A DNA stretch of 50,485 bases from Bacteroidales bacterium. Its GTDB lineage: Bacteria > Bacteroidota > Bacteroidia > Bacteroidales > UBA1556. Positions within the stretch are counted from its first letter, which is position 1. Each line of letters begins with the position of its first letter. Position numbers and translations under genes: made by a program. Positions 28,522-47,346 of this stretch are shown in pieces. The stretch lies in contig WGCS01000192.1 of assembly GCA_015493685.1 (NCBI GenBank), forward strand, positions 1 to 50,485, given 5' to 3'. The notes under the pieces were generated by a model. That model searched no databases and was not told the DNA's origin. It saw only the letters and a program-made list of their open reading frames with translations.

Positions 28522-30285
28522 TTATTTGGTGATAAAAACCTTTCTATTCATAATAATTATATTATTGATAGCAAATGAAAGAAAATAAATACCGGGCTTT
28601 TGATTCGAGATATTTATACTTAGTTTTTGGCTGGTTTTACCCGTAGAATAAACGGTTTTCTGTATTATTTGTTGACCTAATGTATTGCTAATGCTGATGT
28701 TAATTATACCTGAAGGCAAATTGGAATACTTGATATATAATTGTGATTGCGCCGGATTAGGAAAAACAGTAAAATCAGTGGGTTTAATTGTTAAAGGCAG
28801 TGATGTAATACTTCCTGTATGAATATAAATATTGATGCTGTCTTTATGTTCATTTGCTGTGGTAATTATTGTTGATGAGGGGCTGATGACATGGTTTATT
28901 ATATCGGCATATAAGAAATACTTTTGATTAGTTAAATTTGGAAAATTATAGGAGCCATCGTCAGCACTATATTGAAAATCAACAACAGACTTATTGTTGT
29001 CTAATAAATAAACAGGTACTGCTGCCACAGGATCACCGTGGTCCACTTTGCTTTCTTGATAAACAAAACCGGATATGGAAGCACTTCCTTGTGATTTGTA
29101 TAAATGGGTTAAATTGATTTGCATATTAGTACTCACCTGATTCAAATTTTGCACCATACTTTTGTCCCAATATATGGTGTTGCCGGAATAAGCCGGGGCA
29201 AAATTATTGCGCAATGTTGAGTTTGCCATTAGCCTTATATAGGTTGCATATTTACCATATTCTAATCCTGCAAATACATAATAACTAATGTTTAAACTAT
29301 CTACTTTAATACTAAATGTTGAGTCCTGCAATTGGAGTTCGTGATTGTTATTATAATGATAAAGATAAACCATTGCTCTATCAACAGTTCCGGTATCAGC
29401 AAAAACCTGTCCCCATAAACCGGCAGTAGGAGCTCCGTTAACGTGAATTTGTTGTTGCGAAAATGAGATACATGTATCCATGCTTTGTGGCTGATAGGAA
29501 GTGCTTTGTAATTTGACAGTATAAATTCCGGGCTGTAAATAGTGATGCTGTACTTGCCTGCCGTTACCATAAGTCATATCCCCAAAGTTCCACTTATAAA
29601 TAGTTGGATATGCGTTATTTATGGAGCCAACGAAGGAATATTTTTTGGAACTTATTAAGGTATATGTAAAATTATTTGTGCAATTAATAGTAGGACTAAC
29701 ATCAATATCGTCACAATAAGTATCGCTGCAACTGGTGTTTGAATCGAGAATGCTTAAACAAACGTGATAACTGCCCATATTGTAATGGTGGGTAACATTA
29801 AAAGAAGTGGATGTTTGCCCATCACCAAAATCCCATAAATAAGAAGTTGCGTTATTAGAAGATAAATTATAGAAGTGAATCTGCTGATAATCTGCCGTAT
29901 CAGGATAAGCAACGAAATCAGATAAGCACATATTTATTCCTCCGGTACAAATAGTTAAGCTTACAGCCGTAGGATATACCGAAAAAACTGAATCTGTTAC
30001 CGGGTTTTGATTGCAATCTAAAGTAAGCACATAAAATTTGAATAAACCGGAAGGTATAAAAATAGTATCAGTAAAAAAACCTTGATTATTAGTGGTTATA
30101 ATATTGGAATACTGAAAATTATTGGCATTGGTAGTATCGGAGAATATAAGTACTTGATGATTGGGAACGCCAACAAAACTGATGCTGTCACGCACTTGAC
30201 CTTGAATGATAAGTTGAGCTTTGCCAATGTTGAAAGTAAATAGCAATATTAAATTGATAAGAAAGATACCGGTTCGAGTTTTCAT
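28522..30285 (-). CDS. PKD-domain surface protein with T9SS type A sorting tail
   Basis: The 587-residue exported protein has a signal peptide (about 1-23) and an N-terminal Ig/CarboxypepD_reg-like module. Two PKD domains (about 135-195 and 205-270) carry the marks YLWDFGDGQTS and YKWNFGD. Two more beta-sandwich modules follow (GLWGQVF and SISGFVYQES). The C-terminal sorting domain begins FTVFPNPAQSQLYI and ends GIYFLSFAINNIIIMNRKVFI. T9SS sorting implies secretion across the outer membrane and probable surface anchoring. It starts 7 bases after the beta-barrel anti-sigma gene, so it is in the sigma operon, possibly as its output or signal partner. Confidence 0.92.
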   Translation of the reverse strand: MKTRTGIFLINLILLFTFNIGKAQLIIQGQVRDSISFVGVPNHQVLIFSDTTNANNFQYSNIITTNNQGFFTDTIFIPSGLFKFYVLTLDCNQNPVTDSVFSVYPTAVSLTICTGGINMCLSDFVAYPDTADYQQIHFYNLSSNNATSYLWDFGDGQTSTSFNVTHHYNMGSYHVCLSILDSNTSCSDTYCDDIDVSPTINCTNNFTYTLISSKKYSFVGSINNAYPTIYKWNFGDMTYGNGRQVQHHYLQPGIYTVKLQSTSYQPQSMDTCISFSQQQIHVNGAPTAGLWGQVFADTGTVDRAMVYLYHYNNNHELQLQDSTFSIKVDSLNISYYVFAGLEYGKYATYIRLMANSTLRNNFAPAYSGNTIYWDKSMVQNLNQVSTNMQINLTHLYKSQGSASISGFVYQESKVDHGDPVAAVPVYLLDNNKSVVDFQYSADDGSYNFPNLTNQKYFLYADIINHVISPSSTIITTANEHKDSINIYIHTGSITSLPLTIKPTDFTVFPNPAQSQLYIKYSNLPSGIINISISNTLGQQIIQKTVYSTGKTSQKLSINISNQKPGIYFLSFAINNIIIMNRKVFITK

Positions 30286-30292
30286 AAATGCT

Positions 30293-31993
30293 TTAGAGCT
30301 TTACATTAACACCTAATCGCAGACTTAAGCTCTGGTATGATACTGAAAGCTTGCTCAAATCCTTTAAATTAGTTTTATAAGTTGGTTGGAATAGAATAGA
30401 TAATCGGTTTGTAATGGCATAAGAAAGGCCAATGCTTGCAATACCATTGGTGGTGAAATCGGAATAAGGAGAGGAGGATTGATAAATATTATTTAGCGTG
30501 CCTCTGTCGATATATTTTCCTTGCTCGGCGACTTTAAAGCCATACGAAATACCGGCGGCAAACTGAAATCCCCATTTTTTGTATTCTGTTTGGTAACCCA
30601 ACATAATGGGAATTTCGATATAGCGAAAGCGATTGTTGGATTTGTTTTTATTAATATTAAAATAAAGGCTATCCTGTGAATTCCATGCAGCAACAGTGGT
30701 GTCGGTATGCATTACTGAACTTAATTGAGGCACCAAAACACCGGGTTGTAAAGGGTCATCAACCCATGCTACGGTATCATAAGTGTAATAAGTGTTAATG
30801 TTGTATGAGAAATATCCTCCGCTGGTATCATGTAATTCATTGTTTAATTGGAATGTTCTCTGTTCCCCAAAATTGCTATAAGCCATACCCGATTGAATGA
30901 AAAATTGGTTGTAGTGAAATTTGAGGTTAAGGCCAAAACTGTAATCAATGCAATAAGGACTTACTTTTTCCAGTACCAACGATTTGTTGAAAGAGGCATC
31001 TTTCATGGTTGTATTAGCTATTATTTCCGGACCGCCAAAAATATCGATGGAGAATCCTGTTGCCGCTCTCAGTTGAATAAAATGTGAAGGTGAGGCTAAT
31101 TTTTCTCCCATATCGGAATTGCTTAAACGAAAATTATCGCTTGGATTTTTTAACTTCATCTTTTTTACCTCTGCGACTGCTGATGTAAAATCTGAATTCG
31201 TACTATTATTTTGCTCTTGCTTATTGCTTGTTATTTCTTCTATTTCAGCGTGTTTGCTTAAATTTTGGGATTTTGTATTTATGGACTTTGTATTGCCGGC
31301 AATGTATTGTTTATTATTTCCTTTGGCACTTATTGCATAGGTTATTTCCTGTTTCGCCTTAGCGGTATTAGGTTTAATTTCTACTACTGTTTGTTGAGTT
31401 GCTGTTCGAGTTAAGCTGTTTTTATTAATTTTCTTCGTTGATTCTAGAGGTGTATTTATCTCTGAGGTAGAAATTAATGTTTGATGTTTTGTGCTCTTGA
31501 TTGTATTTGTTGTAGTGAAAGGGAAATTGTTTGCATTGTTTTCCAAGCCGGGCATATAGCGATAGGTTATAAAGATAAGCATTGCTGCAATACTTGCGGT
31601 AATAACGAAAAGTTGCATTATCTGTTTTGATAAGTATTCGTTGGCAGCCTCAATACCATCGAGCTTATTGGATATGGACGTCCATAGATTAGAGGAAGTA
31701 TTATATTGTGCATTGTCAAGGGTTTCTTTAACCTGACTATCGAAACTAAGGCTGGCAGCAGTAGCAGCAGCGGCGGCAGATTCTAAGTGGGCATCAATAT
31801 TGGACCATATTTTTGAAGATGGTTTCCCTTTTAAGTCGCGCAAACTATTCTCAATCTGTTGATCAATAGTACTGGCAGCAGAGGGCGTAATATCTAGCCC
31901 ATGACTGATATTATCCCACACACCAGCCGATGGTTTTGCCTTTAAACTATCGAGGGATGCTTCAAATAATTTATCAATATCTACTTCTGTCAT
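30293..31993 (-). CDS. Putative dual-membrane-spanning anti-sigma factor (IM segment plus OM beta-barrel)
   Basis: The 566-residue protein has no signal peptide. The cytoplasmic N-terminus holds three copies of a 27-29 residue motif (6-34, 44-71, 84-112), each with a Leu-rich helix, a conserved P/S-S step and W-x-x-I-x-x-x-L. A single membrane segment lies at about 126-144, then a long Asn/Lys/Thr-rich linker (about 150-310) that could cross the periplasm. A beta-barrel-like C-terminus (about 315-566) alternates aromatic strands and ends LSLRLGVNVKL. This is the plan of the Dma anti-sigma factors I recall from Bacteroides thetaiotaomicron. It starts 5 bases after the sigma gene. Sigma inhibition is inferred from this context. 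Confidence 0.8.
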   Translation of the reverse strand: MTEVDIDKLFEASLDSLKAKPSAGVWDNISHGLDITPSAASTIDQQIENSLRDLKGKPSSKIWSNIDAHLESAAAAATAASLSFDSQVKETLDNAQYNTSSNLWTSISNKLDGIEAANEYLSKQIMQLFVITASIAAMLIFITYRYMPGLENNANNFPFTTTNTIKSTKHQTLISTSEINTPLESTKKINKNSLTRTATQQTVVEIKPNTAKAKQEITYAISAKGNNKQYIAGNTKSINTKSQNLSKHAEIEEITSNKQEQNNSTNSDFTSAVAEVKKMKLKNPSDNFRLSNSDMGEKLASPSHFIQLRAATGFSIDIFGGPEIIANTTMKDASFNKSLVLEKVSPYCIDYSFGLNLKFHYNQFFIQSGMAYSNFGEQRTFQLNNELHDTSGGYFSYNINTYYTYDTVAWVDDPLQPGVLVPQLSSVMHTDTTVAAWNSQDSLYFNINKNKSNNRFRYIEIPIMLGYQTEYKKWGFQFAAGISYGFKVAEQGKYIDRGTLNNIYQSSSPYSDFTTNGIASIGLSYAITNRLSILFQPTYKTNLKDLSKLSVSYQSLSLRLGVNVKL

Positions 31994-31998
31994 TATTG

Positions 31999-32628
31999 TT
32001 ATTGAGTGTTCCTTTTGTGCTTAATATGTACTAGCGACTTTTGTAAAAAAGTACGAGCTTTCGAGAGTTGTGATTTGGAGGTGTTTACTGATATATCTAG
32101 CATTTCTGCAATTTCTCTATGTTTATATTTCTCAAATACATAGAGATTAAAAATCATATTATATCCGGCTGGTAAAGTACGAATTGCTTCTAACATCTCC
32201 ATTTGAGTATAAGGCAATTTCCGCTCAGGTTCGTAATCATCAATGATAGTATTTTCTCTAATTTCATCAATGTTCTGATGACGGTTCTTTTTGCTTTTTT
32301 GATAATAATTCAACGCTGTATTTACCATTATTCTCTTAATCCAGCCTTCGAATGAACCTTGGCGCCTAAAACCTTCAATATTAGTAAAGACTTTGATAAA
32401 ACCATCTTGCATAATATCTTCAGCTTCATCTTGCGATTTGCTATAGCGCATACAAATCCCCATCATAGTAGGTGAATATCGGTCGTAAAGTAACTTCTGG
32501 ATTTTTCTGTCACCGGCAATACATCCATCAATAATACGCTCCTCATCACTTACCCAATCTCGCTTCTCTGAGAGTGCGGATTTGATAAATGGTTGCCTTA
32601 TTGCAAATGTATTAGAGTCTGAGGACAT
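31999..32628 (-). CDS. ECF-family RNA polymerase sigma factor
   Basis: The 209-residue sigma-70 family protein recruits RNA polymerase to a dedicated regulon. Region 2 (about 40-110) includes LLYDRYSPTMMGICMRYSK, EAEDIMQDGFIKVF and GSFEGWIKRIMVNTALN. Region 4 (about 140-195) ends in a helix-turn-helix (YKHREIAEMLDISVNTSKSQ). A 35-residue N-terminal extension precedes region 2. The YDRYSPxMMGxCxRY style is typical of a large Bacteroidota ECF group. It is the first gene of a three-gene operon with the anti-sigma (5 bases) and the PKD protein. Confidence 0.95.
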   Translation of the reverse strand: MSSDSNTFAIRQPFIKSALSEKRDWVSDEERIIDGCIAGDRKIQKLLYDRYSPTMMGICMRYSKSQDEAEDIMQDGFIKVFTNIEGFRRQGSFEGWIKRIMVNTALNYYQKSKKNRHQNIDEIRENTIIDDYEPERKLPYTQMEMLEAIRTLPAGYNMIFNLYVFEKYKHREIAEMLDISVNTSKSQLSKARTFLQKSLVHIKHKRNTQ

Positions 32629-34353: not shown

Positions 34354-34450
34354 TTGGCTTTCCTCCTCTGTTATAAATTTAATTATTCGTTCTTATCGGC
34401 TTGCTACTGTTGCGTGCAAATCTTCTTATTAAAAAGATAATTTACGAGCA

Positions 34451-34467
34451 CAAAAATATTACTTTTA
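34451..34467. promoter_or_regulatory. Back-to-back promoter boxes for asd and the lamin-tail gene
   Basis: The minus strand has TATTTTTG (34451-34458) for asd. The plus strand has TACTTTTA (34460-34467), one mismatch from TAnnTTTG, for the gene starting at 34506. The two boxes are adjacent, so polymerase binding could be mutually exclusive. Confidence 0.45.
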
Positions 34468-34505
34468 TGTTCTATTTTATAAATACATCTTTTTATTTCG
34501 TTATT

Positions 34506-37115
34506 ATGATTCGATTTTTATTAATATCCTGTGTATTATTTATTTATAGCTACTCTAATGCTCAACTTCAGGATGATTTCTCCGATGGAAACTTTACACA
34601 AAACCCGATATGGGTTGGAAATACTTCTGATTTTGATATTAATTCTCAATTTCAACTTCATTTGAATGCCTCCGGTTCCGATACTTCCTATTTGGCTACT
34701 GCCAATCATCTAGTGAAAAATACAGAATGGCAATTTTATGTAAAACAATCATTTAATTCTTCTTCAAATAATTATTCCAGAGTATATTTAGTGGCCAACC
34801 AAAGCAACTTAAAGGCTAATTTAAATGGATATTATGTTCAAATAGGCAGTACTCAGGATAATATTAGTTTATGGCGTCAAGATGGGGCCACATTAAGTAA
34901 GATTATTGATGGGACACAAGCCACGACAGCTAATTCGGTAAATAAATTTAATATAAAAGTACTCTGTGATACTGCCGGTCATTGGTCGTTGTTCTCTAAT
35001 GATGCCAATGGTAGTAGTTATGTGTTGGAAGGAACGGCAACAGATAATACGTATTCCTCTTCTTCCTACTTCGGTGTATTTTGTAAATATACTTCAAGTA
35101 ATTCTACTAAGTTTTATTTCGATAATTTTTATGTAAGAACAATTCAGAGGGATACTATTGCTCCCAGAATACTTAATGTAAAGATTAAATCAGCTAATTC
35201 TTTGGAATTGCAATTTGATGAAACAGTGGAGAAACCTTCTGCGGAAAATTATCAAAATTATCAAATTAATGAAAATATTGGACATCCTATTTCTGCCTTC
35301 CGTCAGGCCAATGATTCTTCAATAGTGATTTTAACTTTCAATCAAAATTTCACCTATGCTCAACATTACCTATTGAGTGTGGAAAACGTTAAAGATCTGA
35401 ATAATAATTCAATGCAATTAACATCCTATCCCTTTATTTTATATTATCTTAAAACAGGTGATGTCGTTATTAATGAAATTATGGCTGATCCTTCTCCTGT
35501 GGTTGCCTTGCCTGATGCAGAATATATTGAGTTGTACAATCGCTCTCCATTGAAAGTGAATCTTCACAACTGGACATTGAAAATAGGAAGTGTAACACGA
35601 GTACTTCCTGAGGCTACTATTCTCCCTGATTCATTTATTATTGTTGCTAAGCAAAGTAATGAAAACGTATTGGCTCCTTATGGAAATTTTGTTGGTTTAT
35701 CCTCATTTTCCATTACCAATTCAGGAGCTGATATTCTCCTTAGGACAGATAGCAATAGGCTGATGCATTATATTAGTTTTAAGGATTCGTGGTATCATAA
35801 TGATGCTAAAAAAAGTGGTGGTTGGGCATTGGAACAAATAGATCCTGCCAACTATTGTGGAGGAATTAGTAACTGGACAGCCTCGGTTTCTGTCCTTGGT
35901 GGTACTCCCGGATATACCAATTCCGTGAAAAGAATTAATCCTGACACCCAGCCTCCAAGTCTTCAGGGAGTTGTAGTATTAGATACAGTACATATTAAAC
36001 TGTTGTGGAGCGAAACCATTGATTCGACAACGGCTTTGAATTTGGCTCAATATACAATTTCCAATGGTCTGGGGTCACCCTTGGAAGTAAACTCTTCCTT
36101 TCCCGATTACAAATCGTTTACGCTAAAACTTGCCGCTCCGTTGCAAAAGGGGAAATTATATAAAATAACAATACATAGAGGTATCACCGATTGTGCTGGC
36201 AATAATATCAGTAGTGAGATAAGTAAAGAATTTGGACTATCACAATTGGCTGATTCTAATGATGTTTTGGTTAATGAGGTTCTTTTTAATCCCCGATTCA
36301 ATGGGGTAGATTATGTGGAATTATATAATCAATCCAATAAAATTATTGATTTGAAAACCCTTAGATTAGCCAATTATAATCCTGAAACAGGCTTCTATGA
36401 AAATAGTAAGATAATTACTACAGAAGGCTTTCAGCTGTTTCCTAAAACTTATTGTGTGTTAAGTAGTTCTACAGCAAAGGTTGAGCAACAGTATTATGTT
36501 CCTAATCCTTCTCAAATGGTACAATTAGTTTCGATGCCGAGCCTAAACAATACTTCGGGTAATCTGTTTTTACTCACCTATGCTTTGCAGTTTATCGACG
36601 GAATGAATTATGATGAGTCAATGCAGTATGCGCTCCTAAATAATCCGGAAGGTGTTAGTTTGGAAAGGATAAGTCATAAAATATCAGGTTTTGTAAAAGA
36701 TAATTGGCGGTCAGCGGCTACTCCGGGTAAAAATGCGGAGGGCTTCGGAGGTACGCCAACTTATAAAAATAGTCAGGCAGAAATTGGAGGCATCTCTTCC
36801 GCTAAATGGAGTGTTGATCCTGAAATATTCTCTCCCAATAATGATGGTATAGATGACTATTTGCAAATAAAATACAAGCTTAAACAGGAGGATTATACCG
36901 CTAGAATAATGATTTATAACTCAAGAGGACAGCTTGTTAAAACGCTTGCTAATAATGAACTTCTTGGAACGCAAGGACAAATTATTTGGGATGGTTTGGA
37001 TGATAATAATCAAAAAGCAGCCATTGGTATCTATGTTATTTATATCGAAATGTTTAATGTAAAAGGGAATACAGAGCATTTTAAACTAACCGCAGTGCTG
37101 GGCGAAAAGTTTTAA
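34506..37115 (+). CDS. Secreted protein with two lamin-tail domains and FlgD/CHU_C-like tail
   Basis: From ATG 34506 the protein has 869 residues with a clean signal peptide (MIRFLLISCVLFIYSYSNAQ); the frame extends 35 codons further upstream but ATG 34506 fits the export signal. It has a jelly-roll-like N-terminus (about 22-215), a Big-like module, lamin-tail domain 1 (from DVVINEIMADP, about 318-430), another Big-like module, and lamin-tail domain 2 (from VLVNEVLFNP). The C-terminal module FSPNNDGIDDYLQI...IWDGLDDNN resembles FlgD/gliding-associated (T9SS type B) tails. Probably a surface or extracellular protein; a nuclease or phosphatase partner domain is not visible. Confidence 0.9.
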   Translation: MIRFLLISCVLFIYSYSNAQLQDDFSDGNFTQNPIWVGNTSDFDINSQFQLHLNASGSDTSYLATANHLVKNTEWQFYVKQSFNSSSNNYSRVYLVANQSNLKANLNGYYVQIGSTQDNISLWRQDGATLSKIIDGTQATTANSVNKFNIKVLCDTAGHWSLFSNDANGSSYVLEGTATDNTYSSSSYFGVFCKYTSSNSTKFYFDNFYVRTIQRDTIAPRILNVKIKSANSLELQFDETVEKPSAENYQNYQINENIGHPISAFRQANDSSIVILTFNQNFTYAQHYLLSVENVKDLNNNSMQLTSYPFILYYLKTGDVVINEIMADPSPVVALPDAEYIELYNRSPLKVNLHNWTLKIGSVTRVLPEATILPDSFIIVAKQSNENVLAPYGNFVGLSSFSITNSGADILLRTDSNRLMHYISFKDSWYHNDAKKSGGWALEQIDPANYCGGISNWTASVSVLGGTPGYTNSVKRINPDTQPPSLQGVVVLDTVHIKLLWSETIDSTTALNLAQYTISNGLGSPLEVNSSFPDYKSFTLKLAAPLQKGKLYKITIHRGITDCAGNNISSEISKEFGLSQLADSNDVLVNEVLFNPRFNGVDYVELYNQSNKIIDLKTLRLANYNPETGFYENSKIITTEGFQLFPKTYCVLSSSTAKVEQQYYVPNPSQMVQLVSMPSLNNTSGNLFLLTYALQFIDGMNYDESMQYALLNNPEGVSLERISHKISGFVKDNWRSAATPGKNAEGFGGTPTYKNSQAEIGGISSAKWSVDPEIFSPNNDGIDDYLQIKYKLKQEDYTARIMIYNSRGQLVKTLANNELLGTQGQIIWDGLDDNNQKAAIGIYVIYIEMFNVKGNTEHFKLTAVLGEKF

Positions 37116-38685: not shown

Positions 38686-41600
38686 TTATAGCTTTATTAC
38701 CTTAACAGCAAGAGTTTGCCCAGACAAGTCAACTACTCTAAGGTAATAAACTCCTGGAGCACCTATTATTTTTGTGCTAATATAATCTGTAGAGCTAATC
38801 TTTTGTCGCAATACAAACTGCCCGATAGAGTTCATGATAATGATTTCTGCATCTCCAATTTCACGATTGAAAAACAGCTCTACTTTACCCTTTGTAGGGT
38901 TAGGAAATATGCGAAACCCTAATTCATATTCAATTGTTTCAATACCAATCCCTGTGATATTAAAACAGGCAGAAGTATCCGTACAATTATTCTCATTTAT
39001 TTCCACTGCATAAACTCCATTTGCTGTAGCAATAAACTGGCGATAGGATTCACCCGGAATAATAGCATACCCATTGTTACAGTTAAGCCATTGGTAAGTA
39101 GCATTTAGTGTATTGGCAAAAAGGGTATCTCCCGTTTGTGTTACACTACTGTTTACTGTATTAATTGTTAAATCAAGGTGCATTATAGAGTCACATCCTA
39201 CGCTATTGGTTAAAGTGTAAGTCGCGGAATTATTATTAGCGTAATAGGTAATGCCATCGACCCAAGTAAAGCTGTCACAAGCAGTATGAATATCAGTCCA
39301 ATTTGTACTATGATTAATTGTCAGGTCTAGGCTAATAACGCTGTCGCAACCAACGGCATTACTCTGAGTATAGAAAGCGGTATTGTTGTCTGAATAATAA
39401 GTATTTCCATCAATCCAAGTGAAGCTATCGCAGGCTATTTGCTGATCAGTACTGAAAGTGCTATAGTTTATAGTTAGGTCTAAAGTAACAACACTATCGC
39501 AACCCGCAGCATTGCTCAGAGTATGAGTAATATTATTGATACTTGAATAGTATGTAATTCCGTTAATCCAAGTCAGGCTATCGCAGGCCACTAGCACATC
39601 GGTTCCTGATGAATTGTTTATCGTTAAATCAAGTGTGATCACACTATCGCATCCAGCAGTATTTGAAATAGTATAAGTAGCGCTATTGTTATTTGTATAA
39701 TAAGTATTTCCATCAATCCAAACTAAACTATCACAAACGGTATGCACATCAGTATAATAGGTACTATTATTAATTGTTAAATCTAGGGTTATTACGCTAT
39801 CGCATCCTACAGCATTAGTCAATGTGAAGCTGGCTGAGTTGTTATTTGTGTAATAGGTGTTATTATCGATCCAGGTAAAACTATCACACGCAATTTGTAC
39901 ATCTATTGCATAGGTGCTATTTGTTATTGCTAAATCGAGTGTTACTACACTGTCGCATCCCAAATAATTTGTAATGGTATAAGTGGCAATGGTATCATTT
40001 GCATAATAAGTATTTCCATCGATCCACACAAAACTATCACAGGCAACCTGCTGATCAACTCCATAAGTGCTATGATTTAAGGTAAGGTCCAGAGTAACTA
40101 TACTATCTCCACCTGTTGAATTTGGGAGAATATAGATGGCTGAATTATTATTGCTTGTATATGTATTTCCATCAATCCATGTATATGAGTTGCAGGCTGT
40201 TTGATAATCTGTTCCAAGAGTACTTGTAGCAATTGGTCCAGAACCATACTCATAACATCCTATATCAATAGTTCCTGTAGCAATTCTATGATTGTAATCT
40301 AAATCGAAATCAGGAATAAACAAAGCTGTAGTATCTCCTGCGTTTATTGCTGGCGATATTGCTGATAAATGAATATTTAAGTTGACTGTATCAACGAAAG
40401 CAGGGAATGAGTCAATATTATTGCCGCCATCTGTACCAAATGCGGTTTTCCAGTTAGCACTACCGCTGCCTTGAATAAGGCAGTTTGCAAATGTAGGACT
40501 GCTCGTACTTGTATTCATAACCTGAGCAGAATCAAGTCCCCACAAAATACAGTTAGTTAGTATAGGGCTACTTTCATCATTAAATATGGAACCACTTTTT
40601 GAATGCCAAGAAGTATTATTGAAAAATGTACAATTGGTGATTATTGGACTACAAACGCCTGTACTGTAGATATCGTTTGCTATAGCCCCTCCATAGTTTC
40701 CTGAAGTGTTATTGATAAAACTACAGTTAATGATATTAGGTTTGCATTCTCCGTTGCTACCCGCATAGTTAAGTATTGCTCCTCCATTATAGGAGTTAGA
40801 ATTTCCTTGAAAAATACAATTCAATATCAACGGATTACATTCAGTGTAATAGAAAGAAGTATTCACCAAAATACCCGCATTATAGCTGGTATTATTTATA
40901 AATTTACAATCTATAATGGAAGGGTTTGTTTTGCCAAAATAATTAGCATAATTCTGTAAAACTCCATTCGAAGAGATCTGATTATTTTTAAAGGTACAGT
41001 TTCGAATAACTGGAGAAGATTCAACCCGTTTACCCTCAGCCACATTATAAAATCCACTTGAAACACCTCCTGTGATTACTAGCCCATTAATTTCAGTTTG
41101 ACTACTAACATCTTCAGTAACAATAATTTTATGGGAGTTGTTTGAATACAAGGTATCCTGTTGTATTTCACCAGAAAGAATTGTCAAAATTGAATCTGGA
41201 TTTCTCACTCCACCACCGGAAGGATATCCTCCCATTACTTTTACACTGTCGGGTATATTGAAACTTTCATATTGATTATTGTTGGTAACAGCAAAGCCTT
41301 GATCAGGAAAATAAGTGCCTTTTGCCATATGTATAGTATAGTCAGCTTTTGCGTGATATAAAGCATCTTGAAGGTTATTATAAGCATTGGCCCAATCACA
41401 GCCGGTATTATCACCTGTAGCAGCAGAGTCAACATAAATATGATCATTGAAATATTTGTTTATCGAAAATTCTAAAGAGTCGGTACAGCCACTCGTGTTT
41501 GATACAACTACCTTATTATGAATATTTTGCAAATAGATAGCTGGATTTACTGTCTCAGCATCATCCCAAAGTATACTGTAGGCACCACCCATGGAAGTTA

Positions 41601-43245
41601 GCGTGAGTCTTGCTGTAGCCGTGGTGTCCGAACAAGTATAATGTTCCATAATATCCAATGAATCAATTACTATATAAATTGGGTTTCCCGAATATTCAAT
41701 TGCGCCAATATCCACAGTTTGATTGTTGTAAATTCTTGGATTGCCGAGGAAATCATATTGAATCCCTATTGGCAAACTGTCATTTCTACCTGCATTAATA
41801 ACTGGTGAACACGCCAATACATTATAATCACCATTTGCAGGATCAGAAAACATAGGGTCTTTAAATTGGTTTCCACCTCCATCAAATCCCAGATTGTCAT
41901 CCCATAACAATCTATACTTATCACTTAAAATTAGGCTGTTTGAAATGTAAACAGTACTATTTGTATCCATTACTAATTCTTCAACTAAGTTATCCCACAA
42001 GATACAATTCGTTATATAAAGATTCGAATAGTTGGCATATAAAGCAGCATTACCATCATTACCTGAAAAAGTACAATTGACGTAAGAAACATCACAAACC
42101 GAATTAAAAACTGCACTACCTTGATAGGAAGAATAATTTTTATCAAAAACACAATTAATGATATCGGCGCCATAGTTTCCCTGATATCCGTTTAGTGCCA
42201 ATCCGCCACCATAAGTACTGGCAATATTACCAGTAAAGCGACAGTTTTTAATTGTAGCTCTACCCTGACCCAAATAGGTATTAAGCATAATAGCACCTCC
42301 ACGGTTCAGACTAGTTTCATTGTAGTTAAAAATACAGTTTTCAAATATTGGATTGCTTATGCCTGTAGTGGAATAAAAGTAAATAGCACCACCTTGATTG
42401 TAAGAGTAACAGCTGTCAAACACACAGGAATCGAAATATGGAGTAGCGGTAGAATAGCTTCCATTTCCAACATAAATAGAACCACCTGCTCCACCACTAT
42501 ATGAGTTTAAGAAAGAACAGTTTTTTATATCTGGGGAGCTAACACCATGATGATGAGCATTAAAATAGATATCACCACCCCAGCTGTTCGCTCTGTTATC
42601 AATAAATTTACAGTTCTCAATTTTCATGCTTGAAGCGCCGTAGCTGGTGGCATCATCATAAATCGCTCCACCGCCTTCTGCTTTATTACTTATGAAAGTA
42701 CAATTTCTCACTTGGGGTGAAGAAGCATTCCTATTCCCAGATCCTTTATTATACCATCCACCGCCTCTCTTATCAAAAGTAACAGAGCCGTAGCTCGCAT
42801 ACCCCATAGTAATTGTAAAACCATCAACAATCAGTTCTGATGACACATTTTCAGTAAAAATTACATGAGAAGCATTTCCACTAATGTAGCCGTTCTGATT
42901 TATATCTCCAGAAAGGATAGTGAGATTCTGAACCCAATCACGAGGGCCTCCTCCATTTGGATAACCGCCTAATACTACTACACTATCGGGGATTTCAAAA
43001 TGCTGTAGTCGGTTATTATTGGTAAAACCAACACCCTCATCAGGAAAGTACGTTCCTTTTGCCACAAAGATTGTATCATTTGCCTGCACTACCGTCAGAG
43101 CATCCTGCAGTTTAGTATACGCTGTATTCCATGTATTTCCATTGCATGTAACAGTACAGGTGCTGGCAGAATCAACATACAAACTCTGTGAGAAGACAAG
43201 TGTAGAGAAAATAAATGCGGACAAAGTAAATATCAATTGTTTCAT
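38686..43245 (-). CDS. Giant secreted beta-helix protein with seven tandem repeats and T9SS tail
   Basis: From ATG 43245 it has 1519 residues; the promoter box at 43264-43271 overlaps the longer start at 43266, so the shorter one is chosen. A signal peptide (1-20) precedes two homologous right-handed beta-helix regions, each opening with a YVDSA...LQDAL...AKGTYFPD block (about 20-560 and 600-1010). Seven tandem units of about 50 residues follow, of the form TxxxxACDSFTWIDGNTYY...GCDSVxTLDLTIN (about 1020-1370). Then comes a type A sorting domain (FRIFPNPTKGKVELFFN). Probably a large surface adhesin or polysaccharide-binding protein; enzymatic activity is not evident. Confidence 0.93.
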   Translation of the reverse strand: MKQLIFTLSAFIFSTLVFSQSLYVDSASTCTVTCNGNTWNTAYTKLQDALTVVQANDTIFVAKGTYFPDEGVGFTNNNRLQHFEIPDSVVVLGGYPNGGGPRDWVQNLTILSGDINQNGYISGNASHVIFTENVSSELIVDGFTITMGYASYGSVTFDKRGGGWYNKGSGNRNASSPQVRNCTFISNKAEGGGAIYDDATSYGASSMKIENCKFIDNRANSWGGDIYFNAHHHGVSSPDIKNCSFLNSYSGGAGGSIYVGNGSYSTATPYFDSCVFDSCYSYNQGGAIYFYSTTGISNPIFENCIFNYNETSLNRGGAIMLNTYLGQGRATIKNCRFTGNIASTYGGGLALNGYQGNYGADIINCVFDKNYSSYQGSAVFNSVCDVSYVNCTFSGNDGNAALYANYSNLYITNCILWDNLVEELVMDTNSTVYISNSLILSDKYRLLWDDNLGFDGGGNQFKDPMFSDPANGDYNVLACSPVINAGRNDSLPIGIQYDFLGNPRIYNNQTVDIGAIEYSGNPIYIVIDSLDIMEHYTCSDTTATARLTLTSMGGAYSILWDDAETVNPAIYLQNIHNKVVVSNTSGCTDSLEFSINKYFNDHIYVDSAATGDNTGCDWANAYNNLQDALYHAKADYTIHMAKGTYFPDQGFAVTNNNQYESFNIPDSVKVMGGYPSGGGVRNPDSILTILSGEIQQDTLYSNNSHKIIVTEDVSSQTEINGLVITGGVSSGFYNVAEGKRVESSPVIRNCTFKNNQISSNGVLQNYANYFGKTNPSIIDCKFINNTSYNAGILVNTSFYYTECNPLILNCIFQGNSNSYNGGAILNYAGSNGECKPNIINCSFINNTSGNYGGAIANDIYSTGVCSPIITNCTFFNNTSWHSKSGSIFNDESSPILTNCILWGLDSAQVMNTSTSSPTFANCLIQGSGSANWKTAFGTDGGNNIDSFPAFVDTVNLNIHLSAISPAINAGDTTALFIPDFDLDYNHRIATGTIDIGCYEYGSGPIATSTLGTDYQTACNSYTWIDGNTYTSNNNSAIYILPNSTGGDSIVTLDLTLNHSTYGVDQQVACDSFVWIDGNTYYANDTIATYTITNYLGCDSVVTLDLAITNSTYAIDVQIACDSFTWIDNNTYYTNNNSASFTLTNAVGCDSVITLDLTINNSTYYTDVHTVCDSLVWIDGNTYYTNNNSATYTISNTAGCDSVITLDLTINNSSGTDVLVACDSLTWINGITYYSSINNITHTLSNAAGCDSVVTLDLTINYSTFSTDQQIACDSFTWIDGNTYYSDNNTAFYTQSNAVGCDSVISLDLTINHSTNWTDIHTACDSFTWVDGITYYANNNSATYTLTNSVGCDSIMHLDLTINTVNSSVTQTGDTLFANTLNATYQWLNCNNGYAIIPGESYRQFIATANGVYAVEINENNCTDTSACFNITGIGIETIEYELGFRIFPNPTKGKVELFFNREIGDAEIIIMNSIGQFVLRQKISSTDYISTKIIGAPGVYYLRVVDLSGQTLAVKVIKL
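39150..40230 (-). repeat. Seven tandem ~150-base coding repeats
   Basis: In-frame units of about 50 codons, each encoding a Cys-Asp-Ser start, a W-[IV]-[DN]-G turn and a G-C-D-S-[VI] end. The first (N-terminal) unit is the most diverged (Cys to Asn-Ser and GGDS). The array could expand or contract by recombination. Confidence 0.8.
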
Positions 43246-43263
43246 ATATTCGCTAAATAGTGT

Positions 43264-43271
43264 CAAAGTTA
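43264..43271 (-). promoter_or_regulatory. Promoter -7 box for the giant beta-helix gene
   Basis: Minus strand TAACTTTG, perfect TAnnTTTG, 18 bases before ATG 43245. Confidence 0.5.
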
Positions 43272-47074: not shown

Positions 47075-47227
47075 CTAAGAATATTCGCTGCTATTGGAAA
47101 CGATGTAGTGTATCTCGATTATTCTAATAAACTTAATTACTTTTTGTTTATTTAAACCTTGTATTTTTAATAAATAAATACCGGCAGCTAAATCATTAAC
47201 ATCAATCTTTATATATTGTTTATTTTT
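47075..47227 (-). pseudogene. T9SS sorting-domain relic
   Basis: The minus-strand frame reads NKQYIKIDVNDLAAGIYLLK, then IQGLNKQKVIKFIRI, ending at TAG (47075-47077). The pattern I-D-V-x-x-L-A-x-G-I-Y-L-L-K-I is the last half of a type A sorting domain. Nothing upstream continues the protein: the frame runs into the GCGAATCC repeat at 47227. This is the 3' end of a lost secreted-protein gene. Confidence 0.65.
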
Positions 47228-47346
47228 CCTTTGCTGGTGCGCGAATCCTTTCGCGTTCCTCTGCTGTTCAGTAAATTAGCTAACTCATGTGGCAAATTTA
47301 ATGGTTTTTTTATTAAAAGCCACACGAAAGGATTCGTGTGGCAGCG
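47227..47346 (+). repeat. Dispersed palindromic repeat, copy 2
   Basis: Block one (TTGCTGGTGCGCGAATCC then TTTCGCGTTCC, 47227-47259) contains the small palindrome GCGAA-TCCT-TTCGC. Block two (47272-47346) ends in a perfect 10-base stem, GCCACACGAA (47319-47328) with TTCGTGTGGC (47333-47342). It is about 75 bases shorter between blocks than copy 1. Confidence 0.85.

Follow-up and report, generated by a model that had tools for sequence, protein, structure and literature searches.

How can an event at the cell surface reach a sigma factor in the cytoplasm, and which genes would that sigma factor then serve? Both questions are raised by an operon in the stretch of DNA analysed here (the window), which comprises 50,485 nt of contig WGCS01000192.1 from a Bacteroidales bacterium whose genome is also labelled G000. 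Three open reading frames (ORFs) on the minus strand encode an extracytoplasmic function (ECF) sigma factor, a middle protein of 566 aa, and a protein combining PKD domains with a sorting signal of the type IX secretion system (T9SS). Their coordinates bear out the layout described in a first-pass annotation, with gaps of 5 and 7 nt between consecutive genes. The operon is read here as a likely ECF switch of the dual-membrane-spanning anti-sigma (Dma) type, the main target of which would be the operon itself and the product of which would be a T9SS-exported PKD surface protein.

Dma proteins are defined by an N-terminal sigma-binding domain, a transmembrane helix, a disordered tether and a C-terminal barrel, with an ECF21 sigma factor encoded alongside (PMC13088901). 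By sequence, the only family match of the middle protein is a sub-threshold one to OMP_b-brl_2 (9.3e-5). An AlphaFold2 model, built on an alignment of 29 sequences, arranged the N-terminal helices in pairs, held the membrane segment within a helix spanning residues 103-146, and formed an OmpA-like barrel from strands at residues 313-565, mostly with a predicted local distance difference test score (pLDDT) of 80-97; the mean over the whole model is 63, lowered by the tether and the loops. Foldseek and VIA place residues 308-566 on OmpA, NspA and OmpW barrels, with Z scores of 18.3 for NspA (154 residues, 3.3 A), up to 18.0 for OmpA-type structures and 16.7 for OmpW, in agreement with the barrel that had been proposed for residues 315-566.

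The N-terminal domain is built from a unit of 29 residues, with the consensus ID.LF...L......P....W..I...LD, of which the window protein carries three copies; by their profile scores, these repeats are genuine. The number of copies varies across relatives. Within the genus, one unit is found in L022, L023, L025 and L026, two in L021 and L024, and three in the window and L020. In the Bacteroidales set, most proteins have a single copy (81 proteins), followed by two (10), three (2), four (2) and six copies (1), and in the phylum-wide set the number reaches five. The protein with six tandem units is a barrel anti-sigma of genome G020 (L030:5693-7702), the inner units of which form a 120-nt direct repeat in the DNA with copies 87-89% identical to one another. 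Read at the nucleotide level, this repeat shows recent amplification of the unit and a regulator variable in copy number.

The affiliation to Dma was further assessed through the dma2 operon, which has the order das2-dma2-DUF4943 (PMC13088901). This synteny was traced by means of DUF4943 (PF16301) in two genomes of one family (L218 and L219), where a sigma factor, a protein and DUF4943 follow one another. The middle proteins of these loci match the window-family profile at 5e-15 and 6e-9, a homology to Dma2 which rests on proteins defined by synteny and not on Dma2 of B. thetaiotaomicron itself, and the sigma factor at the das2 position matches the profile of the window-family sigma factors at 9e-44. 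The latter family adjoins 80 of the 88 anti-sigma matches in other families, and no natural sigma-anti-sigma fusion (Dma3-like) was found among the fetched loci checked. By sequence features and homology, the middle protein is thus a Dma-type anti-sigma candidate, as the first-pass annotation had proposed: all four sequence regions are present, in addition to the profile match. The likeness to Dma1 and Dma2 extends from the ECF sigma factor directly upstream to a putative sigma-binding N-terminal domain, the single membrane helix, the long disordered tether and the terminal barrel, and a third gene is present in both this and the dma2 operon. The differences lie in that third gene, which is DUF4943 there and encodes a T9SS type A PKD protein here; in the N-terminal unit, seen once by eye in the dma2-synteny proteins (the unit hidden Markov model, HMM, gives no match there) and three times in the window protein; and in the promoter, which in the window lies inside the sigma ORF.

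The third protein matches PKD_4 in two stretches (2.4e-20) and Por_Secre_tail (7.9e-11), has a carboxypeptidase-regulatory-like domain below the cut-off (5.2e-6), and starts with a signal peptide read by eye. Its sorting domain scores 42.5 bits for PF18962 (cut-off 27) and 32.3 bits for TIGR04183 (cut-off 23). As the genome itself encodes SprA (2670 bits) and 104 type A sorting domains, it has a T9SS.

The sigma factor of the window (Sigma70_r2 at 4e-18 and Sigma70_r4_2 at 5e-14 in the family search) shares 54-78% identity with its orthologues within the genus. There, a T9SS type A gene directly follows the barrel anti-sigma in all 14 barrel-type operons found, against 4 of 78 background genes at the same loci; the 14 include a second operon of sigma factor, barrel anti-sigma and T9SS PKD protein in the window's own genome (L051:5507-9537, G000:C277). 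In other Bacteroidales families, a T9SS gene comes next in 26 of the 72 assessable operons, against a background of 12 in 287 genes (p 5e-12). A simple pattern served to recognise the sorting domain in this count, and nine of the proteins were checked with Pfam, eight of which have PKD domains. The expectation that homologous sigma/anti-sigma loci would carry the PKD gene was supported, and the three-gene order recurs in Bacteroidales; among the loci seen outside Bacteroidales, the cargo is less common. The trees of sigma factor, middle protein and cargo are congruent (Mantel r 0.87-0.91); since such values reflect shared descent, they indicate co-inheritance and not contact. Judged by this conservation, the PKD gene belongs to the operon unit. 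A different, recurrent set of neighbours stands 3' of the barrel anti-sigma in L028, L034, L178, L190, L201 and L205: a gene for a secreted protein (about 310-340 aa) precedes one for a protein of about 940-957 aa, and the two are possibly unrelated housekeeping genes.

Comparison of upstream regions points to the promoter from which the sigma factor would drive the operon. Three subgroup motifs were distinguished: GGCAACC-N17-TCT, to which the window belongs; TGCAAC[GT]-N17-GTC, represented in the second operon of the same genome by its own variant TGCAACG-N17-GTC; and TGCAACT-N17-TCA. The general form is present at 14 of 14 genus operons and at no more than two in shuffled sequences. When other families are counted together with the phylum-wide set, it lies upstream of 93 of 159 sigma genes of this group and of 38 of 1232 other genes (p 1e-69, uncorrected for kinship). 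The window's own genome has two exact matches to the motif, one at the operon and one within a transporter gene. As the operon carries a conserved promoter of its own and the motif is nearly unique in the genome, the main output of the sigma factor is probably the PKD protein; the factor would autoregulate and have a small regulon, from which weaker sites may be missed. Of the three roles initially considered for the PKD protein (external ligand, barrel-associated sensor or output), it is the last that the conserved ECF promoter favours.

The location of this promoter is unusual. In the window, L020, L021 and L024, GGCAACC-N17-TCT sits 28-31 nt into the sigma ORF, and in relatives with a short sigma factor it precedes the start by about 40 nt. 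An upstream alignment of the four long-sigma loci gave no common promoter because the site is inside the ORF; the motif appeared after the short-sigma relatives were added. A trivial explanation would be a wrongly assigned start codon. This is countered by the codon differences between window and L020 in the N-terminal extension, of which 10 are synonymous and 6 non-synonymous, when about 23% would be expected to be synonymous without constraint, though the comparison with L021 gives 3 and 12. An arginine codon, AGG, is invariant in all four loci, and four other conserved arginines differ in codon. The extension thus looks translated, and the ratio obtained with L021 makes the evidence moderate. 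No in-frame ATG, GTG or TTG is found in the window between the promoter and region 2. If the extension is translated and the promoter is real, the sigma-driven RNA would have no sigma start codon and would give the anti-sigma and the cargo only. The loci with the promoter inside the ORF are those with two or three N-terminal units; as the four are close relatives, unit number and promoter position may represent one event and not a correlation. The features of the operon are collected in Table 1.

Table 1. Predicted features of the sigma/anti-sigma/PKD operon, in window positions
Feature	Position	Strand	Basis
ECF sigma factor, 209 aa	31999..32628	-	Sigma70_r2 and Sigma70_r4_2
Sigma N-terminal extension, codons 1-25, overlapping the promoter	32554..32628	-	alignment; in window, L020, L021 and L024, not in short-sigma relatives
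Predicted sigma-dependent promoter, GGCAACC (-35, 32591-32597) - N17 - TCT (-10, 32571-32573)	32571..32597	-	upstream-region comparison
Dma-type anti-sigma candidate (middle protein), 566 aa	30293..31993	-	region anatomy; profile match to dma2-synteny proteins
Anti-sigma-domain unit 1, aa 6-34	31892..31978	-	unit HMM 7.7e-14; AlphaFold2 helix pair
Anti-sigma-domain unit 2, aa 43-71	31781..31867	-	unit HMM 4.9e-12
Anti-sigma-domain unit 3, aa 84-112	31658..31744	-	unit HMM 4.3e-10
Single inner-membrane helix, aa about 123-146	31556..31627	-	hydropathy; AlphaFold2 helix 103-146
Disordered periplasm-sized tether, aa 151-308	31070..31543	-	AlphaFold2 pLDDT mostly below 50
8-stranded outer-membrane barrel (predicted), aa 313-565	30299..31057	-	AlphaFold2; NspA/OmpA/OmpW structural matches
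T9SS type A PKD surface protein, 587 aa	28522..30285	-	domain matches
T9SS type A C-terminal sorting domain, aa 507-585	28531..28767	-	PF18962 and TIGR04183

Starting from the trio, its anatomy, the promoter and the near-unique motif as observed, we infer sigma binding, a two-membrane topology and the direction of the signal, guided by the sequence, the model and the precedent of the Dma proteins. At rest, the 566-aa protein would use its N-terminal units to keep the sigma factor bound at the inner membrane, and its far end would form a small outer-membrane barrel. A change in the outer membrane or at the surface would act on the barrel and alter the N-terminal grip, and the freed sigma factor would start transcription at GGCAACC-N17-TCT. 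More anti-sigma would then be made, which amounts to negative feedback, and more of the T9SS PKD protein, the output. With the promoter inside the ORF, activation in this species would boost anti-sigma and cargo and not full-length sigma.

Several points weigh against this switch. No T9SS gene adjoins the anti-sigma in 46 of the 72 loci from other families, and the cargo is therefore not intrinsic to the switch. The few additional exact motif matches in other genomes of the genus are about as many as in a reversed control, one further exact site lies ahead of a gene in G005, and the search, being exact, misses weaker members of the regulon. For the relative L172, a construct of sigma factor and N-terminus, in which the stop codon between them was read as a residue, was modelled with a predicted template modelling score (pTM) of 0.70 and well-predicted N-terminal helices, and the modelled sigma resembles those of the SigW-RsiW and CnrH-CnrY complexes; having neither predicted aligned error nor a lone-sigma control, the model is only compatible with binding, of which it is no proof.

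The same operon can be read with another role for the PKD protein, which would then be the input: once exported by the T9SS, it would bind the outer loops of the barrel and hold the switch off (or on), and the circuit would gauge the delivery and attachment of its own cargo. This is an unlikely reading but the most serious of the alternatives, given the tight co-inheritance of cargo and barrel protein with congruent trees, and the conservation within the PKD protein. Across the genus, conservation in the latter is strongest from about residue 285 onwards, where the stretch GQVFADT...YSGNTIYW (aa about 285-395 in the window protein) lies, rather than in the PKD domains; this region is kept in L022 despite the loss of the PKDs. 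A precedent exists in P. gingivalis, where PorA, a protein with a T9SS C-terminal domain, is linked to and acts upstream of the ECF sigma factor SigP through PorXY (PMC7712824). Both systems tie such a protein to an ECF sigma factor; in P. gingivalis a two-component system stands between them and the targets are genes of T9SS components, whereas the operon in the window has its own candidate membrane-spanning anti-sigma and a promoter motif which points to the operon itself. Contact between barrel and PKD protein is nevertheless conjecture, and many related sigma/barrel pairs have no T9SS neighbour at all.

The profile of the anti-sigma family also matched proteins devoid of a barrel. In the window's own genome, a 363-aa protein beside a sigma factor of the same group (L293:4739-5830; G000:C171, L053/L293) combines the N-terminal unit with a membrane helix and ends in a type B sorting domain of the T9SS, CHU_C/TIGR04131 (1.5e-18; 54.9 bits, cut-off 35). 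Anti-sigmas of this kind are also encoded at L283-L292, in the genus and in other families. The order in this sister design is a 411-aa M16-like protein, sigma factor, sorting-domain anti-sigma, a 429-aa M16-like protein and a secreted type B cargo, with M16 assigned by eye. It is kept, in whole or in part, in the genus (L283-L285, L287). L288 shares it, L291 is arranged in a similar way, and the cargo is missing from L290; the loci L286, L289 and L293 end at a contig or region edge. A predicted inner-membrane anti-sigma that carries an export signal of the T9SS may serve to sense that system, and the sister design supports a repeated link between the sigma group and the T9SS. Two further sigma/anti-sigma pairs of the same genome (L054:4366-4938 and L055:4332-5153) have the N-terminal unit and no barrel, and the anti-sigma of L054 appears to have two units.

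From here it could be argued that the circuit in the window senses the state of the T9SS machinery, whether export is blocked or idle, with the cargo as a reporter substrate. The presence in genome and genus of the same sigma/anti-sigma-domain module with a type B sorting domain would fit, as would the type B cargo two genes downstream wherever the contig is complete; the barrel version lacks a sorting domain and shows no physical link to the translocon, and the proposal appears improbable. That the circuit serves general control of the outer membrane or of vesiculation, as for Dma1 and Dma2, the mutants of which hypervesiculate with the DUF4943 gene of the dma2 operon being dispensable for this (PMC13088901), and that the third gene is a passenger, is very improbable, as a T9SS protein in 14/14 genus and 26/72 other operons would be unexpected against a background of 4-5%.

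A broader and speculative proposal, which we hold to be rather unlikely as a whole, is that the module has been wired to the T9SS twice, once through a barrel with type A PKD cargo and once through a type B sorting-domain anti-sigma near M16-like proteins and type B cargo. Each would gauge whether its cargo is exported or reaches the surface and tune the expression of that cargo in a FlgM-like manner, and tandem units together with the in-ORF promoter would tip the circuit towards shut-off in the subclade of the window. The parallel with FlgM/sigma28 concerns how the sister design alone might work: the state of export would control the sigma factor if the T9SS engaged the sorting-domain anti-sigma. 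The secretion system is a different one, and the anti-sigma with the T9SS domain is membrane-anchored.

Around the operon, a plus-strand gene of the window (34401-37115) encodes a protein of 904 aa that has lamin-tail domains and the type IX signal CHU_C. A semialdehyde-dehydrogenase gene is oriented divergently from it, and L021 and L024 have similar neighbours beside the operon. On the minus strand are a T9SS type A protein of 1526 aa (38686-43266) and a lone frame of 66 aa with a partial sorting domain (47126-47236), which may be a gene remnant.

Returning to the Dma-type switch with the PKD protein as output, it may also be compared with FecIRA (FecR/TonB) signalling, where an outer-membrane event is passed to an inner-membrane anti-sigma and on to an ECF sigma factor. 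The relay through an inner-membrane anti-sigma would be common to both. No FecR or TonB-receptor Pfam match was obtained in the three operon proteins or the immediate neighbours tested, and the barrel is here part of the anti-sigma itself. Signalling with neither TonB nor proteolysis, as suggested in the first-pass annotation, is conceivable for this operon. A literature search, which did not extend to the original Dma1 paper, found nothing on T9SS-linked Dma proteins or sorting-domain anti-sigmas. What is new here is the T9SS cargo in a Dma-type operon, the promoter motif, the tandem units and the sorting-domain sister, the Dma plan itself being known.

The finding bears on signalling from surface to transcription in Bacteroidota without FecR/TonB, and the trio ties a recently described class of regulators, studied so far in gut Bacteroides, to the T9SS; in the sister design, the anti-sigma factor itself bears a T9SS sorting signal. 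With one promoter, one cargo and a very small predicted set of targets, the operon would provide a simple test bed, and the promoter motif allows the targets of this sigma group to be listed across the phylum.

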